Shown: positions 13,242 through 59,546 of the stretch, in pieces
Numbering within the stretch: position 1 is the stretch's first letter
How the letters are laid out: each line of letters starts with the position of its first letter
Assembly (NCBI GenBank): GCA_030017685.1
Contig: JASEHH010000001.1
Span: 1 to 64,000, forward strand
DNA from: Thermodesulfobacteriota bacterium
Lineage (GTDB): Bacteria; Desulfobacterota; BSN033; UBA1163
DNA length: 64,000 nt
Direction: 5' to 3'
The notes under the pieces: model-generated
Told to the model about the DNA's origin: nothing
Database searches by the model: none
Seen by the model: only the letters and a program-made list of their open reading frames with translations
Position numbers and translations under genes: made by a program

Positions 13242-13316
13242 TTAGGTTAAGGTTGAGGTCAAGGTTAAGATTTATATCAATAAGTCTCAACCTAAGCCTT
13301 AACCTGAACCTTAATC
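13242..13316. repeat. Inverted hexad array between convergent genes
   Basis: The left arm is in six-base register (TTAGGT, TAAGGT, TGAGGT, CAAGGT, TAAGAT at 13242-13271). The right arm (about 13287-13316) carries the complementary units AACCT with the same spacing. The right arm forms the last codons of uvrA. It may act as a two-way terminator hairpin, though no T-run is present. Confidence 0.65.
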
Positions 13317-16066
13317 TTGTTGAGGCGTTGCCTTAAAAACTGTGCGGTAAAGGATTGTTTCGAGGCTATGATGGTTTCGAGGTCTCCCTCTACGACAATC
13401 CTACCTCCTTCTTCACCGCCTTCCGGTCCCAAATCGATGATATAGTCCGCACATCGAATCAAGTCAAGGTTGTGCTCGATCACGATGAGAGAATGGCCAT
13501 TGGAGAGGAGTTTTTCGAAGGTTTTCAGGAGAAGTTCAATATCAGCCATATGGAGTCCTGTTGTCGGCTCATCGAAGATAAAGAGATCCCTTCCCGGGTG
13601 GACCTGGCCGATGTGTTGAGCAAGTTTTAATCGCTGGGATTCCCCTCCGCTTAATGTATTGGTAGATTGACCCAGGGTGAGATAACCCAATCCAACCTCC
13701 TTCAGAATCTGAAGTTTTACGATGATCTTCTGATGGCCTTTAAAGAAGGTAAGAGCTTCTTCAACGGTCATGTTCAACACTTCTGAGATGTTGAGGTCCT
13801 GATAACGAATCTTTAAGACCTCAGGGCGAAACCTTTTTCCATCACACGCCTCACAGGTAATGATCACATCCTCTAAAAATTGCATATCCAGAACCTGAAG
13901 CCCAGCTCCCTGGCAGGCTTCGCATCGGCCTCCTTCGGTATTGAAGGAGAAATGGCGGGGCTTAAATCCATTTCTTTTAGCCTCTCGAGTTCGGGCAAAA
14001 AGGTCCCGGATATCGCCGAAGACCTTGATGTAGGTAGCGGCATTTGATCGGAGGCTTTTACCAATCGGGGATTGATTGACCAAAACGAGGTCATTAATTT
14101 GATCTAACCCTTCGATGGAATCAAAAGAACCTTTTTCAAACTCAGAATTTTCATTCCTTTTGGCTCCGGCATAGAGGATGTTATGGACCAGAGTGGTCTT
14201 TCCTGCACCGGACACGCCTGTGATGCAGACCATCAACCCAAGGGGAATACGGACATCAATTTCTTTAAGATTATGCTGGCGGGCATTGCGGATGGTCACC
14301 CACCCCGCAGGTGTCCTGTGCGATTTAATCGGAAGAAAAGGGATTCCATCCCTCAGGTATCGGGCAGTGATGGAGTCCTCTTTTTTTATAAGGGACTCGA
14401 GATCTCCTTCAAAAATGACATGGCCTCCCTCTCTTCCTGCTCCGGGACCGAGATCGATGATCGAATCGGCAGCCCGAATCATATCCGGATCGTGCTCCAC
14501 CACGACAATGGTATTGCCACGGTTTCGTAAATAAAAAAGTGTCCTGAGGAGTCGGTCTGTATCTCTGGCATGGAGGCCAATGCTCGGTTCATCGAGAACG
14601 TAGAGCGTGTCAGTCAGGGATGAGCCCAGGGCCCTGGCCAGGGTAATGCGCTGGTATTCACCGCTCGAAAGGGTACGGGTTTGTCGGGAAAGAGAAAGAT
14701 ATCCCAATCCGACATCGACTATGAAACCGAGGCGATCGTTGATCTCCTTGAGAAGGCGTTCTGCCACCTGTCGCTGAAAATCTTTTAGGGGGATGTTTTT
14801 GAAGAATTCCTGAAGTTCGGAGACAGACATTTCGCTGAGCTGGCAGATATGTTTTCCAGCCAGACGGACATAGAGCGCTTCTTCTTTGAGCCGGGACTCA
14901 TGACAGGCGGGGCAGGGGGTATAGGCCCGGTATTTGCTGAGAAAGACCCGGTAATGGACTTTATATCGTTTTCCCTCCATCCAATCGAAGAATCCCTTCA
15001 GACCTATGAATTCCCCTTTTCCATTGAGAAGGATCTCTTTCTGGTGGGATTCGAGTTCCTCAAAAGGCTTCTGAATTGAAATACGATGCCTGCGGCAGGC
15101 TTTCCACAGATACTCGTAAAGGTCCTCATAGGCAGGTGTGTTCCAGGGAGCAAAAGGTTTCTCTTTCAAAGTTTTTTTGGGGTCGGGGATAACCTTCTGC
15201 CAATCGATCCCAATAACCCTACCAAAACCCTGACAGGTTGGGCAGGCTCCGACCGGACTGTTAAAGGAGAAGAAGAGGGGGGCCGGTTCTGAAAATGTTT
15301 TTCCGCAACGATTGCAGGAATGGCTGCGGTTAAAGGTCATCCTCTTTCCGTCTTCTCCGATGACTTCAACTTTTCCGCCTCCTGCATGGAATCCACTCTG
15401 GATGGCTTCGGTGAGCCTCGATCTATTCTTTTCCTCGGATGACAAACGATCGATGAGCAGAAGAAATTGCCGTCGATTTTGGAGAAAGGAAGGAGGAAGG
15501 GTTGTAAGGTCGAGCACCTCTCCTCCTTCCCAGATTCGATAATATCCATTTTGAATCAGTTCTTTTATCTTGGCGTCTGCCTTTTCTTCTCGGGCCAATG
15601 AGACCGGACTAAGAATAGACACTTTCTTTTTAAGATATTCGCTCAGCAGGACTTCAGAAACGGTTTCAACCGTATCTCCCGAAACCTTTATCTGGCACTG
15701 TGGACAGAAAACTTCTCCAATCTTGGCGAAAAGAAGCCTTAAGTAGTCGTAAATCTCGGAGGCTGTCCCCACGGTGGATCGTGCATTCTTCACTGTGTTT
15801 TTCTGCTCAATGGCAATGGCAGGAGGGATCCCGTGAATAGCCTCCACATCGGGCCGGTCCATCTTTTCGAGGAACTGCCGGGCATAGGTGGACAGGGATT
15901 CGATATAACGCCTCTGACCTTCTGCAAAAAGAGTATCGAAGGCCAGAGTTGATTTCCCCGAGCCGGATACACCGGTTATGACCGTGATTTTGCCTCTCGG
16001 TACCCTGCAGGAAATGTTTTTGAGGTTATGAGATCTTGCGCCAATGATCTCGATGAACTTTTGCAT
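13292..16066 (-). CDS. uvrA: Excinuclease ABC subunit A
   Basis: About 924 residues, the usual UvrA length. Two ABC ATPase halves: Walker A GVSGSGKSTLAFDTLF near the N-terminus and GVSGAGKTTLVHNILY in the second half; Walker B/signature LDEPSIGLH and FDEPTTGLH. The zinc modules show CPQC, CNRCGKTF with CPTCQGFG, and CEACQGAG with CEACDGKRF. The first signature reads LSSGEYQR instead of LSGGE. UvrA recognises DNA lesions for nucleotide excision repair with UvrB. The start is taken at ATG 16066; an alternative GTG is at 16093, and neither has a good ribosome-binding site. The C-terminal tail KIKVQVKA is encoded by the hexad array. Confidence 0.92.
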   Translation of the reverse strand: MQKFIEIIGARSHNLKNISCRVPRGKITVITGVSGSGKSTLAFDTLFAEGQRRYIESLSTYARQFLEKMDRPDVEAIHGIPPAIAIEQKNTVKNARSTVGTASEIYDYLRLLFAKIGEVFCPQCQIKVSGDTVETVSEVLLSEYLKKKVSILSPVSLAREEKADAKIKELIQNGYYRIWEGGEVLDLTTLPPSFLQNRRQFLLLIDRLSSEEKNRSRLTEAIQSGFHAGGGKVEVIGEDGKRMTFNRSHSCNRCGKTFSEPAPLFFSFNSPVGACPTCQGFGRVIGIDWQKVIPDPKKTLKEKPFAPWNTPAYEDLYEYLWKACRRHRISIQKPFEELESHQKEILLNGKGEFIGLKGFFDWMEGKRYKVHYRVFLSKYRAYTPCPACHESRLKEEALYVRLAGKHICQLSEMSVSELQEFFKNIPLKDFQRQVAERLLKEINDRLGFIVDVGLGYLSLSRQTRTLSSGEYQRITLARALGSSLTDTLYVLDEPSIGLHARDTDRLLRTLFYLRNRGNTIVVVEHDPDMIRAADSIIDLGPGAGREGGHVIFEGDLESLIKKEDSITARYLRDGIPFLPIKSHRTPAGWVTIRNARQHNLKEIDVRIPLGLMVCITGVSGAGKTTLVHNILYAGAKRNENSEFEKGSFDSIEGLDQINDLVLVNQSPIGKSLRSNAATYIKVFGDIRDLFARTREAKRNGFKPRHFSFNTEGGRCEACQGAGLQVLDMQFLEDVIITCEACDGKRFRPEVLKIRYQDLNISEVLNMTVEEALTFFKGHQKIIVKLQILKEVGLGYLTLGQSTNTLSGGESQRLKLAQHIGQVHPGRDLFIFDEPTTGLHMADIELLLKTFEKLLSNGHSLIVIEHNLDLIRCADYIIDLGPEGGEEGGRIVVEGDLETIIASKQSFTAQFLRQRLNKIKVQVKA

Positions 16067-16195
16067 CACATCATTATAATATAGGCTCTTCACGTAAGCG
16101 AGTGTGCCATTTTCGCTTTTTTTCTCCTCTTAAAGACCCTCCCCACCTCCCTCCTTCAACAGGCTCAGGATGGTAAGCATCCCGAACCATTTGCC

Positions 16196-16220
16196 AAAGG
16201 GAGGAGAAATACTTCCCCCT
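16196..16220. repeat. 25-bp direct repeat, copy 1 (left side of cassette island 1)
   Basis: Starts AAAGGGAGGAGAAATAC and ends TTCCCCCT; identical over 25 bases to 59214-59238 on the left side of cassette island 2. Confidence 0.85.
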
Positions 16221-16267
16221 ATATCGAATAAATGCCTGTAATTCAATAGGATTTAGCTAAAAATACC

Positions 16268-16296
16268 TTGACACTTTCCTCCCACATGCATATAAT
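16268..16296 (+). promoter_or_regulatory. Consensus sigma-70 promoter, candidate cassette promoter Pc of island 1
   Basis: TTGACA at 16268-16273, a 17-bp spacer, and TATAAT at 16291-16296: both hexamers are perfect. It points into the first cassette and ends 33 bp before the GTT boundary. Confidence 0.75.
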
Positions 16297-16328
16297 TCCT
16301 CCATCTATAGAATAAACTTAAAAAATAA

Positions 16329-16335
16329 TGTTCGG
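16329..16335 (+). other. Cassette boundary (attI-like) GTTCGGC
   Basis: A GTT-type heptamer 33 bp after the -10 box. Its exact complement GCCGAAC ends the first cassette at 16675-16681, as integron recombination requires. A full attI cannot be defined without the integrase. Confidence 0.6.
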
Positions 16336-16379
16336 CTTGAATCGGTGTCGCAACCTGAACTCAGAAAGGAGGGAGAAGC

Positions 16380-16664
16380 ATGAAGATCAAGAATATCAAC
16401 GGAACGTCCCAGACCACGTGCGTTTGCGGTTCATGGCTGAAACATTGGGAGAAGTTCAGCGGCCAGACGGCCACCTATTGTCCTGTCACTGGATGCTTGA
16501 AGAAAGACTTGGTGGGTGCTCACGTCCAGAAAGCCAACGGCTCCGACGACAAGTGGTATATCTACCCGCTTTGCAACGCTCACAACCAAAGCACGGGTGT
16601 ACTGGAGGTCTCCGATTCCTACAAACTCGTTTCGGCAAACAAGAAGGAAACGTGCGAAAAGTAG
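16380..16664 (+). CDS. Cys/His-rich HNH-like small protein (cassette gene)
   Basis: A 94-residue protein with paired metal-ligand candidates: CVCGSW, then CPVTGC, GAHV and PLCNAHN. The layout resembles a treble-clef HNH-type zinc site (two Cys pairs with His residues), though the catalytic histidine cannot be assigned. I have seen conserved hypothetical proteins of this type, but no function is known. AAAGGAGGG precedes the ATG. The gene occupies the first cassette of island 1, between the GTT boundary at 16329 and its own attC at 16675, and would be expressed from the consensus promoter at 16268. Confidence 0.7.
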   Translation: MKIKNINGTSQTTCVCGSWLKHWEKFSGQTATYCPVTGCLKKDLVGAHVQKANGSDDKWYIYPLCNAHNQSTGVLEVSDSYKLVSANKKETCEK

Positions 16665-16674
16665 ATAAAGAGGA

Positions 16675-16737
16675 GCCGAACAAGGTTTTCCACCGGACGC
16701 GCAAAGAGACGCGCGCCGGTGAAAACTGCCGTTACGA
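16675..16737 (+). other. attC: attC recombination site of cassette 1, island 1
   Basis: 63 bp from GCCGAAC (16675-16681) to GTTACGA (16731-16737). The inner arms pair as GTTTTC/GAAAAC, ACCGG/CCGGT and CGCGC/GCGCG, with single unpaired bases on one side, the usual attC architecture. GCCGAAC is the exact complement of the upstream boundary GTTCGGC. Confidence 0.8.
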
Positions 16738-16799
16738 TGAATAAAATAGATAAAATTTAAAAAATAGCTGATATATAAATAGAAAAACGAGGTAAGAGA

Positions 16800-17218
16800 T
16801 GGCCGGTAAACTAACAGAGATATTCACCGATAAAAACCTTGTAGAAAAAATTAAGAAACGAATGCCCTATTTATAAAAAATACCTGTTGAATACCGCCCA
16901 GCTCTGCTGGGCGGATGAAAACAGGTTCGCGAAGCGATAAAACATGGTATAAGTTGGGCATGAGCCCGATAAAATGAACAAGTCATGCAGTTTTGGGGAG
17001 GAGATTTTTGGGGTGATGGGTATTTTGTTCGGTCTGTTTGGGACAAGGTAACCTCAGACGTTATACGTCGATACATAAAGTATAAGCACCACAAGCAGTT
17101 GGGTTTTGATTTTTAATACCCCGCAGCTCTGCTGCGGGGTAATTTATTCCAACTTGCTGAATTAGAAAGTTCTCGGGCTGGCAAAACAGGAATGGAGGTA
17201 GTGATATATGGTAAATAA
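16800..17218 (+). pseudogene. Type II restriction endonuclease (ThaI-like), interrupted and truncated
   Basis: The frame at 16800 reads MAGKLTEIFTDKNLVEKIKK, then RMPYL, and stops. After the 273-bp insert at 16875-17147 the same protein resumes at 17147 with FQLAELESSRAGKTGMEV and runs to TAA at 17218. Joined at the insertion point the codons are continuous, so the insert split the gene. Together these are only the first 45 or so residues; the rest of the enzyme is missing, replaced by the zinc-ribbon gene. Assignment to the ThaI family is from memory of its N-terminal sequence. The enzyme must be inactive. Confidence 0.55.
16875..17147 (+). mobile_element. IS200-like insertion remnant
   Basis: A 273-bp insert with subterminal hairpins at both ends: CCGCCCAGC/GCTGGGCGG (16894-16914) and TACCCCGCAGC/GCTGCGGGGTA (17117-17141), both with a TCT loop. 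Between them, 16988-17116 encodes a fragment matching the C-terminal part of IS200-type TnpA (FWGGDFWGDGYFVRSV, then VIRRYIKY), closed by TAA. The upstream transposase frame carries stops and the catalytic N-terminal part is gone. TTTAT occurs at the left target and at the right end of the element, in line with tetra/pentanucleotide-targeted IS200/IS605 insertion without classic duplication. Confidence 0.7.
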
Positions 17219-17438
17219 CAAAAAGTTCGAACGGAAACATTGCGGTAATTGTGGCTCGGTTTTAGATACCATTTGGTTTACTGCTTTAATGACAGAAGAA
17301 TGGTCTTGGAACGGGGAAGGGTATAATGAGTGTACTGCAAAACATAGCCTAACAAATGATCCAGACTCAAAAGTAATATGTCCAAAGTGTGAGAAAGTGG
17401 TTGGAACTGGATGTGATTTTGGATTTAATAAAGCATAG
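17208..17438 (+). CDS. Small zinc-ribbon protein
   Basis: A 76-residue protein with two CxxC pairs, CGNC near the N-terminus and CPKC near the C-terminus, as in zinc ribbons, plus single cysteines. No family was recognised. GGAGG lies eight bases before the ATG and itself sits in the remnant of the restriction enzyme gene. It may be a controller or accessory protein of the restriction-modification region, but only position supports this. Confidence 0.6.
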   Translation: MVNNKKFERKHCGNCGSVLDTIWFTALMTEEWSWNGEGYNECTAKHSLTNDPDSKVICPKCEKVVGTGCDFGFNKA

Positions 17439-17498
17439 GTATCAAAGCGAATAATAATTACACCTGAATCATATCATTTCCAAAGGAGGTATCAAATA

Positions 17499-18368
17499 AT
17501 GGGTCAAGAATATCCGGCGATTATTAGAAGCCAAAGCCAAATCGCATACAATTATGCTACTATTAGAATTACCAAAAGTAGACTTGATAAGGGACTATTA
17601 GCAATTCCTGTTTCACTAATTCAATGGTTTCCCAAACAAAATTGCCAGATTAATGTTTTCCTTGATGATTCAGTACATTCTCAATTAAAAACTTATACTT
17701 CATATACTAGCCGTAGCCGTGAGTGCAGAATTGGTGGATTGCCTGAATGGTTTAGGGAAAATCAAATCAAAGAAGGAGATGAAATCGTACTTCAAGTAGT
17801 CGATAAAAATAATTATGTCTATAGGTTAATACCCGAAGTGAAATTTATAACCAAAACGAAACAAATCCAAGCTGAATTTGATAATTCTACAGATGAATTA
17901 AATGCCGAACAGAATTTATTCAGAATAGCGGATTGGACAAGGACAGATGAAAAAACAGCTAAGTTAACGGAGTTCTTTAGATTAATCAAACAACCTATTA
18001 TTAAAGAAAGACAACTCATTAGCAAAAAAGGGTCTTTTGGTAAAGAATCTACACCATCTAATATAAGAATTTTACTTGGCAAAATATATTTAGGACATTG
18101 TCAGGTTTGCGATTTCTGGTTTCTAAGAAAGGATAAAAAACCTTATTACGAAATTCATCATCTAAATCCTAAAATCGGCAATCATATTAAAAATCTAATA
18201 CTAGTTTGTGGAAACTGCCATAATCAATTTGAATATGCCGATACAAAGGAAGAGTTTAAAGATGGATGGCTAGCAAAAGTATATTTTAACAATAGAATAT
18301 TCGTTATCAATCAGATAATTTCAAAACATAAAATAGAAGAAGGGGCAAAAACAATCTTCGTCAACTAA
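17499..18368 (+). CDS. HNH endonuclease with putative N-terminal DNA-binding domain (restriction enzyme candidate)
   Basis: A 289-residue protein. The C-terminal part holds an HNH zinc nuclease: CQVCDFWFLR, then EIHHLNPKIGNHIKNLILVC and GNCHNQFEYAD. The N-terminal 120 residues contain GLPEWFRENQIKEGDEIVLQ, which resembles the B3/EcoRII-N DNA-binding fold. With the methyltransferase gene 17 bp downstream this makes a plausible type II restriction enzyme. AAAGGAGG precedes the ATG. The region is AT-rich compared with the flanking chromosome, consistent with transfer. The frame may originally have continued into the methyltransferase. Confidence 0.7.
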   Translation: MGQEYPAIIRSQSQIAYNYATIRITKSRLDKGLLAIPVSLIQWFPKQNCQINVFLDDSVHSQLKTYTSYTSRSRECRIGGLPEWFRENQIKEGDEIVLQVVDKNNYVYRLIPEVKFITKTKQIQAEFDNSTDELNAEQNLFRIADWTRTDEKTAKLTEFFRLIKQPIIKERQLISKKGSFGKESTPSNIRILLGKIYLGHCQVCDFWFLRKDKKPYYEIHHLNPKIGNHIKNLILVCGNCHNQFEYADTKEEFKDGWLAKVYFNNRIFVINQIISKHKIEEGAKTIFVN

Positions 18369-18385
18369 ATAATAGTGTTCATCTA

Positions 18386-19198
18386 ATGGTGACATCACCA
18401 CCTTATAATGTTGGTAAGCAATATGACGAGAATCTTTCGCTCAATGAATACAGGACGTTTCTTAAACTGGTCTGGAGCGAGGTCAAGAGGGTTATAGTGC
18501 CCGGCGGTCGTGTCTGTATAAATATTGCTAATTTAGGCCGCAGGCCCTATATTCCGTTACATGCTTATATTGTAGAAGATATGCTTGATTTGGGTTTTTT
18601 GATGAGGGGTGAGGTTATCTGGAATAAAGCATCAAGCGGCAGCCCTTCCACGGCCTGGGGGAGTTGGTTATCTGCAAAAAATCCGATTCTTAGAGACATT
18701 CACGAATATATTTTGGTTTTTTCTAAAGGGCTATTTTTCAGAGAAAACACCAATGGGAAAAAAAGCACTATTTCTAAAGAAGAATTTTTGGAATTCACTA
18801 AAAGTGTCTGGACGTTTTCTGCCGAGTCTGCCCGAAAGGTCGGTCATCCGGCACCTTTCCCTGTTGAATTACCACTTCGAGTGATCAAGCTATACACCTT
18901 TGAAAATGATGTAGTGTTGGACCCGTTTATGGGAAGTGGGCAGACCGCTATAGCCGCCCTGAAGGCAAGTCGTCATTATGTCGGCTATGATATCTCAAAA
19001 GAATATGTAACCCTTGCCCAAAAAAGGATAAAGGGATATTTGCAGGAACAAATCACTTTATTCCCTGAGCTAATAGATACTAAACCGCTGGTAATCGCCG
19101 AAAGACCAAGAGGGAAAGAATATCAAGTCAAAAGTAAACATAGAAATAAGCAAACAATCAGAAGCACTGATAGAAATATAAAAAAAATAAATTCATGA
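18386..19198 (+). CDS. Type II DNA methyltransferase (N4-cytosine/N6-adenine, beta class)
   Basis: A 270-residue enzyme with catalytic motif IV TSPPYNVGK at the N-terminus and AdoMet motif I DPFMGSGQT near residue 190, the beta-class order; SPPY favours N4-cytosine methylation. Upstream of ATG 18386 the same frame stays open for about 20 codons and reads NNLRQLNNSVHL, the normal segment before motif IV, but offers no start codon. One extra A in the A5 run at 18347-18351 would join it in frame to the HNH gene, so the 5' end is either frameshifted or the gene was a fusion. The stop codon overlaps an attC-like site. Confidence 0.8.
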   Translation: MVTSPPYNVGKQYDENLSLNEYRTFLKLVWSEVKRVIVPGGRVCINIANLGRRPYIPLHAYIVEDMLDLGFLMRGEVIWNKASSGSPSTAWGSWLSAKNPILRDIHEYILVFSKGLFFRENTNGKKSTISKEEFLEFTKSVWTFSAESARKVGHPAPFPVELPLRVIKLYTFENDVVLDPFMGSGQTAIAALKASRHYVGYDISKEYVTLAQKRIKGYLQEQITLFPELIDTKPLVIAERPRGKEYQVKSKHRNKQTIRSTDRNIKKINS

Positions 19199-19252
19199 AC
19201 AAGACAATGCAGCGGACGGCAAAAGACGCCGCCACGGATTTTTGTGTTTTTT
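19194..19252 (+). other. attC: attC-like site closing island 1
   Basis: 59 bp from CATGAAC to GTTTTTT. Its interior is strongly similar to attC7 at 63285: both read AAGACA, then CAGCGGACGGC, then a GCCGCC arm and GATTTT. The stop codon of the methyltransferase lies inside its first heptamer, as in cassettes. The left heptamer does not complement the boundary GTTACGA at 16731, so the unit in between is composite. Confidence 0.6.
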
Positions 19253-19294: not shown

Positions 19295-20113
19295 TTAAAC
19301 TTTCAGAGTAACTTCATCTTCTTCGAGGGAAAGGGGTTCTCCGCAATGATGGCAGACCCATGCCTTTGAGGAGACCATCTTTCCACAGGCCTGACATGGC
19401 CGGGTCAACCGTCTGGGCAATAGATGGGTGGTTCTGAAGGGTGAGACTGCCTGAGCCTTTTTGACCAGGATAAAGGTCAATATCAATCCAAAGACCCAGA
19501 CCAGAAGTCCAAGAAGAAAGAACCATTCCGATTTCTTAAATGTCCCCGCGACAATGAAAAAGTTATAAAACCAGTGGAGAGAGATGGCCAGAATAAAACC
19601 GACCCAGAGCTGATTTCCATCTTTTTCTATCTTCGCCTTCCCCATGTAATATCCTAAGATGGCCGAGAAGGAGAGATGGGCCAGGTAGGAGAGAATGGCC
19701 CTGAGGAGACCGACAGAGAATCCGAATCCCAGCATATACCCGACATTTTCAGCGGCCGCAAAACCCATCGCCGCTGAGACCATGTAGATCATCCCATCCA
19801 TCACCTCGTTGAATTCGCTCGAGCGGTAAACCGTCAAGCGAACAGCTAAAAATTTAAAGGTTTCCTCCACTATCCCGACCCAAAGGAATAGAAAAAAGAG
19901 GTCACGGATCAGGGGAGGGTGATAGGAGCTTGTCATCTGGAAAGGAGCCTCTAAGAGAATGGAGGGGATGGTGGAAAGAACTCCGGCAAAAAAGGTGAGG
20001 TAGATGAGACGTTCCGGCTCCTTCTCAAATTTATCCATTCTCCGGAACCTGCCAAGCCAGAAGAGGGCGACCAGAAGAGAGAAGAGAAGGGCGATGATCA
20101 CAAGGACTCCCAC
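19295..20113 (-). CDS. PrsW-family intramembrane metalloprotease with C-terminal zinc ribbon
   Basis: A 272-residue protein with about eight membrane segments. The PrsW/CAAX-like catalytic motifs are present: EETFK at residues 83-87, FNEVMDGMIY at 101-110 with AAAENVGY after it, and HLSFSAILGYY near 147. Such proteases cut membrane-anchored regulators (for example anti-sigma factors). Beyond the membrane part, residues 240-265 form a zinc ribbon (CQAC and CHHC), an addition not present in classical PrsW and likely cytoplasmic. The start overlaps the end of the TIM-barrel gene by 16 bases, so the two are translationally coupled. Confidence 0.8.
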   Translation of the reverse strand: MGVLVIIALLFSLLVALFWLGRFRRMDKFEKEPERLIYLTFFAGVLSTIPSILLEAPFQMTSSYHPPLIRDLFFLFLWVGIVEETFKFLAVRLTVYRSSEFNEVMDGMIYMVSAAMGFAAAENVGYMLGFGFSVGLLRAILSYLAHLSFSAILGYYMGKAKIEKDGNQLWVGFILAISLHWFYNFFIVAGTFKKSEWFFLLGLLVWVFGLILTFILVKKAQAVSPFRTTHLLPRRLTRPCQACGKMVSSKAWVCHHCGEPLSLEEDEVTLKV

Positions 20114-59213: not shown

Positions 59214-59238
59214 AAAGGGAGGAGAAATACTTCCCCCT
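59214..59238. repeat. 25-bp direct repeat, copy 2 (left side of cassette island 2)
   Basis: Identical to 16196-16220. Here it is the centre of a longer inverted element (about 59193-59272: AAATCCC...CCCCCTTT against AAAGGGGGA...GGGGGATTT). The rest of 59137-59478 is AT-rich; I found no integrase fragment in it on either strand. Confidence 0.85.
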
Positions 59239-59478: not shown

Positions 59479-59507
59479 TTGACAAAATTGATTAGCAAGT
59501 ATAGTAT
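59479..59507 (+). promoter_or_regulatory. Candidate cassette promoter Pc of island 2
   Basis: TTGACA at 59479-59484 and TAGTAT at 59502-59507, 17 bp apart (TATAGT at 15 bp overlaps). The -10 box ends 33 bp before the first GTT boundary, exactly as in island 1. Confidence 0.65.
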
Positions 59508-59539
59508 TGCAAGAAATTACACCTTGCAGTTCAATAATT

Positions 59540-59546
59540 GTTAGGC
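59540..59546 (+). other. First cassette boundary (attI-like) GTTAGGC
   Basis: Left end of the array. Its complement GCCTAAC ends cassette 1 at 59959-59965, which marks the recombination register. Confidence 0.7.

Follow-up and report, generated by a model that had tools for sequence, protein, structure and literature searches.

An integrase-less integron beside uvrA in a Thermodesulfobacteriota genome, with a retained cassette promoter and attI site and possible exchange of cassettes in trans

At 16.25-19.25 kb on a contig of a Thermodesulfobacteriota bacterium, a promoter and a candidate attI site are followed by integron cassettes beside the gene uvrA, and no integron integrase gene (intI) accompanies them. 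Is this locus what remains of a complete integron, and could cassettes still be exchanged there? The DNA analysed, here called the window, is the whole stretch of 64,000 nucleotides at positions 1-64000 of contig C13. Its genome, G000, is a draft metagenome-assembled genome (MAG) of 3.96 Mb in 326 contigs, 92% complete. The genomes used for comparison, including the relatives, are draft MAGs throughout; G003 and G007 belong to the genus of the window, and G008 and G009 are congeners. With a probability of about 0.87, the segment is an orphaned chromosomal integron, consisting of a cassette promoter (Pc), a type-A attI and two cassettes, from which intI was deleted, so that any later exchange would have had to use an integrase acting in trans. 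The leader, the cassette boundaries, the absence of intI, the difference in cassettes between the window and a sister species at this junction, and the occurrence of cassette 2 at another site in G007 were established by sequence comparison. The leader and cassettes are as follows.

16268-16296, plus strand: putative Pc, TTGACA-17-TATAAT, a consensus match with the same place and spacing in several type-A leaders
16309-16332, plus strand: type-A attI, AGAATAAACTTAAAAAATAATG^TT, near-identical to sequence beside complete intI on contigs C44 of G008 and C158 of G009
16331-16731, plus strand: cassette 1, with one gene of 94 amino acids (16380-16664), defined by complementarity of boundary box and R''
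16675-16737, plus strand: attC of cassette 1, 63 bp, from covariance score and DNA fold
16731-19252, plus strand: cassette 2, a damaged ThaI-type restriction-modification cassette, recognised by its identity to an intact cassette in G007

The promoter had been pointed out in an earlier note on this DNA, made from the sequence alone. It is the sole exact match to TTGACA-N17-TATAAT in the window, where 0.01 is expected in shuffled sequences, and it is predicted to be directed into the cassettes, as Pc is in a complete integron. The GTTCGGC box behind it, which the note placed at 16329, is present and starts at 16330, 33 bp from the -10 box. The exchange point of the attI is predicted between 16330 (G) and 16331 (TT). 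The sequence AGAATAAACTTAAAAAATAATGTT and the promoter upstream of it are nearly unchanged beside the complete integron integrases on the two contigs of G008 and G009. Because the same Pc-attI leader adjoins complete intI in both genomes, the segment before GTTCGGC is a genuine attI.

A simple hairpin scan for attC sites was dropped, as it missed sites with R'' and R' from neighbouring cassettes, and covariance models were used instead. An Rfam search gave no match at gathering thresholds. Model 1 was trained on 7 sites of an array at 59-64 kb in the window and 2 sites of contig C271, model 2 on 43 sites, all outside the window. The site at 16675-16737 scored 30.2 bits with model 1 (E 1e-4 over 124 kb) and 36.3 bits with model 2 (E 2e-6 over the window). 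Its bottom strand has a fold z of -3.79 relative to shuffles, and the R''/L'' arm carries two unpaired bases, as it does in a classical attC. The site therefore has what defines an attC, namely R'' and R' boxes, a foldable bottom strand and extrahelical bases. As the earlier note had it, the entry box GTTCGGC finds its exact complement (7/7) in GCCGAAC at 16675. The same boundary rule holds in the 59-kb array, where the 5' box agrees with the cassette's own R'' exactly in 7 of the 8 cassettes and at 6/7 in the remaining one. Cassette 1 obeys this rule and so is an integron cassette. Relatives of its protein, at 49-86% identity, are found in Chloroflexi, Bipolaricaulota, Omnitrophota, Bacillota, Treponema and others, and several of the related genes in other phyla are framed by complementary GTTCTGC/GCAGAAC boxes or by attC matches.

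The second cassette is composed of the following parts.

16799-16874, plus strand: 5' part of a ThaI-family restriction gene, resuming at 17142-17199, with the rest lost (comparison with G007)
16875-17141, plus strand: 267-bp insertion with two GC-rich hairpins and ATTTAT at both sides, absent from the G007 copy
17200-18368, plus strand: 1169-bp replacement segment, not in the G007 copy
18369-19198, plus strand: DNA methyltransferase gene (N6_N4_Mtase; PF01555, E 7e-46), the first ~24 codons gone
19194-19252, plus strand: putative decayed terminal attC, homologous to a good attC in G007

An intact counterpart of cassette 2 is present in G007 on contig C91, at another chromosomal site, where it is the cassette next to an orphan type-B attI. 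It encodes a ThaI restriction enzyme (PF15514, E 4e-94) and a full methyltransferase, so the decayed restriction enzyme gene reported in the earlier note is real. Homology between the two copies begins exactly at 16731, the exchange point after the first attC, and ends within the terminal attC. Having the same ends at different sites, cassette 2 behaves in this comparison as a mobile unit would. The copies are 95.5-98.3% identical in nucleotide sequence, whereas uvrA of the same pair of genomes is only 80.9% identical. Because the cassette is 96% identical between species in which uvrA is 81% identical, it moved after the species split.

In the window this cassette is broken, and two of its lesions, the insertion in the restriction gene and the loss of the methyltransferase N-terminus, go beyond what the earlier note had described. 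The 267-bp insertion splits the restriction gene and holds the C-terminal remnant of an IS200-like Y1_Tnp transposase (open reading frame 16985-17116; PF01797, E 1e-5). The 1169-bp segment stands in for the 3' end of the restriction gene and the 5' end of the methyltransferase gene. It contains open reading frames for a zinc-ribbon protein (17208-17438) and a B3/HNH protein (17499-18368). Among the genes named in the note, the methyltransferase is clear and 97% identical to its G007 homologue, in which the start is intact; the zinc-ribbon is a weak match, and the HNH gene has weak matches to both PF01844 and PF02362, one of them a B3 match. The B3/HNH protein, which had no relative among the fetched loci, may be another nuclease that invaded the broken restriction-modification cassette.

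The attC-like end noted at 19194 is weak on its own, with 12.7-17.3 bits across models, of which model 2 gave 17.2, a fold z of -0.36 and a degraded R'. Its counterpart in G007 (C91:24483-24539) scores 39.7 bits, and by this homology it can be read as the decayed copy of a good attC. An attC missing from the cassette, suspected from the mismatch between its start and end boxes, was rejected as a candidate after inspection of the G007 copy (GTTATGA against TCATAGC, 6/7), which points to drift. The two sites thus did not fail together in the attC models, the outcome that had been named as fatal to the cassette interpretation. With two attC sites, one strong (16675) and one weak and homologous to a good site (19194), and no intI, the segment is a CALIN (cluster of attC sites lacking integron integrase) that has retained Pc and attI.

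The locus lies between two chromosomal genes, by which it could be followed across relatives.

13292-16093, minus strand: uvrA, the left flank, with Pfam UvrA domains; orthologues turned up in the relatives searched
19295-20113, minus strand: PrsW-family protease gene, the right flank (PF13367, E 7e-33)

In G003 the junction of the two genes is empty, with ~150 bp between them and neither attI nor cassettes. In G007, uvrA is followed by a promoter and GTTCGG homologous to those of the window, likewise without intI. Homology between G000 and G007 stops at 16335, at GTTCGG, and an unrelated gene comes next in G007; the first attC there starts with CCGAAC, the complement of the boundary box, as the boundary rule predicts. 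Sites of the attC type adjoin uvrA or PrsW also in G002, G012, G013, G014, G015 and G016. The earlier note had proposed such a comparison and would have been contradicted by relatives sharing the whole 16.3-19.3 kb without cassette variation; what was found is an empty site, a site with other cassettes and sites bearing attC in at least five more relatives. The attI at the junction is of type A in four genomes and of type C in G012 (L043), and G016 (L047) has an intI end of lineage B. Because of these last two, different integrons must have occupied the uvrA junction. In G009 (L038) a gene for a transposase of the type associated with REP (repetitive extragenic palindromic) sequences, identified by eye, lies just upstream of uvrA, where other relatives hold cassettes.

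No intI is adjacent to the attI at the uvrA locus: tblastn found no similarity to intI left in the window, and contig C13 gave no intI match. Because the intI-less junction is common to G000 and G007, intI was probably lost before the two separated. Partial intI genes accompany type-B leaders elsewhere, as N-terminal remains (own contig C223 and G006 C51), with an internal deletion (G015 C67), with frameshifted ends (G014 C76) or as split pieces (G007 C161). The intI end in G016 encodes 125 amino acids and lies directly beside uvrA. It was considered as the lost cis-integrase of the window's attI and rejected, since the tree places it in lineage B, not A; it shows that integrons occupied the uvrA locus and does not indicate which one preceded the leader in the window. 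The assembly of G007, 97% complete, contains no complete integron integrase, though it has ~31 attC matches.

A second island, at 59 kb, has a leader of another type.

59479-59546, plus strand: putative Pc and type-B attI (TTGCAGTTCAATAATT^GTT); in G005 and G011 this leader adjoins a complete intI, next to the radical-SAM gene that the window has as well

The 16-kb and 59-kb islands are both former complete integrons that have lost intI, because the leader of the one matches intI-bearing G008 and G009 and that of the other intI-bearing G005 and G011. The type-B attI TTGCAGTTCAATAATTGTT comes first in the 59-kb island, together with a promoter of its own; three further contigs of the genome have it with no more than two mismatches. 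The earlier note had given the two islands the same distance from -10 box to GTT; this is 33 bp at uvrA only, and at 59 kb it is 34 (TATAGT, 15-bp spacer) or 32 (TAGTAT, 17-bp spacer; counted by eye). Its proposal of two cassette-accepting loci 43 kb apart, neither with an integrase, is supported and was an understatement, as further orphan attI sites are present and the genome has at least 47 attC sites on 17 contigs (C271, C174, C50, C239, C286, C138 and 11 others). The genome is unusually rich in cassettes. It has two complete integron integrases, on C174 and C271, which belong to different lineages in a tree with at least five; both fall outside the lineages that accompany attI types A and B. 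These two integrases could act in trans at the orphan sites.

According to the orphaned-integron reading, intI would formerly have been located between uvrA and Pc and have been deleted since. Cassettes would be gained and lost through recombination of the attI, at its G/TT (16330/16331), with an attC whose bottom strand is folded, and Pc would read into the first cassette. Without intI at the locus, any later exchange would have to use an integrase encoded elsewhere, and we infer that exchange did take place after the loss of intI and was catalysed in this way. Several points weigh against it. Homologous transfer of the uvrA region could imitate exchange after the loss; the similarity of cassette 2 dates its movement and not its arrival at the uvrA locus; and in draft MAGs an intI could be missing. 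The integrases on C174 and C271, being of other lineages than those of types A and B, may not recognise a type-A attI. Finally, the right side of the locus is probably frozen, because the terminal attC of cassette 2 has decayed.

Decay of cassette 2 and its attC, the absence of intI and the progressive decay of intI at other orphan loci would also be expected of a dead relic, in which the cassettes arrived while intI was present, no exchange has occurred since, and later deletions account for all that distinguishes G000 from G007. However, the two genomes have the intI-less junction in common and yet differ in the first cassette precisely from the exchange point onwards, a result that plain deletion would rarely give. 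Cassette 2, too, moved once the species had separated; this dates its movement and not its arrival at uvrA. We regard a relic of this kind as unlikely.

Type-A leaders recur at unrelated loci in three genomes (G002, G003, G006) and, in G014, at uvrA. Such a distribution, with types A and B at many unrelated loci and mostly without intI, and with the variety of integron types found at uvrA itself, would fit a ~100-bp Pc-attI leader that is itself a mobile unit, a docking pad copied into new places on the chromosome. Several orphan type-B leaders, however, retain the intI promoter region or a decayed intI, which argues for descent from complete integrons, and the leader alignment has no sharp common left end; a mobile leader is therefore improbable. 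In G003 (L104) and G006 (L108), the orphan type-A attI is followed by the same first cassette and is located beside a CrtC/AttH-like gene (named by eye), which offers a second place where the turnover of cassettes can be compared.

Insertion at non-classical genomic sites (attG) is known for IntI1, and a locus without intI could have received its cassettes by chance at such a site. This predicts unrelated sequence at each site, whereas the ~100 bp before the boundary, perfect promoter included, correspond to the attI regions that complete integrons have in this genus, and turn up again at other loci with cassettes. The leader alignment largely refutes attG, which is thus very improbable here. 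An artefact of assembly or binning that joined unrelated pieces is conceivable for a draft of so many contigs and has a negligible probability, as the independent assembly of G007 has the same arrangement of uvrA and leader, and synteny with relatives holds on either flank.

One further feature precedes both islands.

16196-16220, unstranded: 25-bp sequence AAAGGGAGGAGAAATACTTCCCCCT, with a second copy, ahead of the 59-kb island, at 59214-59238

Within the genome, the 18-bp core of this sequence is confined to 16196-16220 and 59220, and the sequence is also found at the uvrA locus of G007; it may belong to a REP-like repeat.

Like the CALINs of IntegronFinder 2.0 (PMC9024848), the uvrA locus has cassettes bounded by attC with no intI nearby; unlike them, it keeps a recognisable attI and Pc, and its relatives provide a decay series and a change of cassettes at one junction. 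IntegronFinder recognises attI sites of class 1 only (PMC9024848), so whether a CALIN has kept its attI usually goes unassessed. In Xanthomonas, sedentary integrons at the ilvD locus form an ancestral chromosomal platform with widespread inactivation of intI, and the attC clusters without intI that occupy several fixed loci can reportedly be mobilised in trans (PMC12444791). The chromosomal platform, the inactivated intI and the dispersed intI-less attC clusters are shared with the family of the window, which differs in having at least five integrase lineages, several attI types, and orphan attI-Pc sites across the chromosome with more than one type in a single genome. In the integron remnant of Treponema phagedenis, judged static by its authors (PMC3607928), attC sites also persist after the loss of intI; at the uvrA locus, in contrast, cassette content differs between species with a common intI-less junction. 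The ThaI system (PF15514 with an N6_N4 methyltransferase), intact in G007, is here the content of a two-gene integron cassette, of which the window has a broken copy. Relative to the open-access papers in PMC, the new elements are an attI and a promoter that have been kept and can be recognised, the spread of several attI types over one chromosome, and comparative evidence for a change of content at an intI-less junction.

Clusters of cassettes that lack an integrase tend to be classed as dead integrons, and their attI is normally not sought. The comparison made here identifies attI and promoter, follows the decay of intI in stages and finds cassette differences at an intI-less junction. A sister species shares the stump and has other cassettes in it, which suggests that an integrase encoded elsewhere can still load new cassettes into such orphan stumps. 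More tentatively, and with less than even odds in our view, the chromosome in this family may carry a set of scattered integrase-less Pc-attI docking sites of several types, served in trans by a few resident or passing integrases, so that the loss of intI would not end exchange. This raises the testable question of whether orphan attI sites still receive genes through integrases acting in trans; if they do, integron activity in genomes would be underestimated wherever intI is used as the marker.

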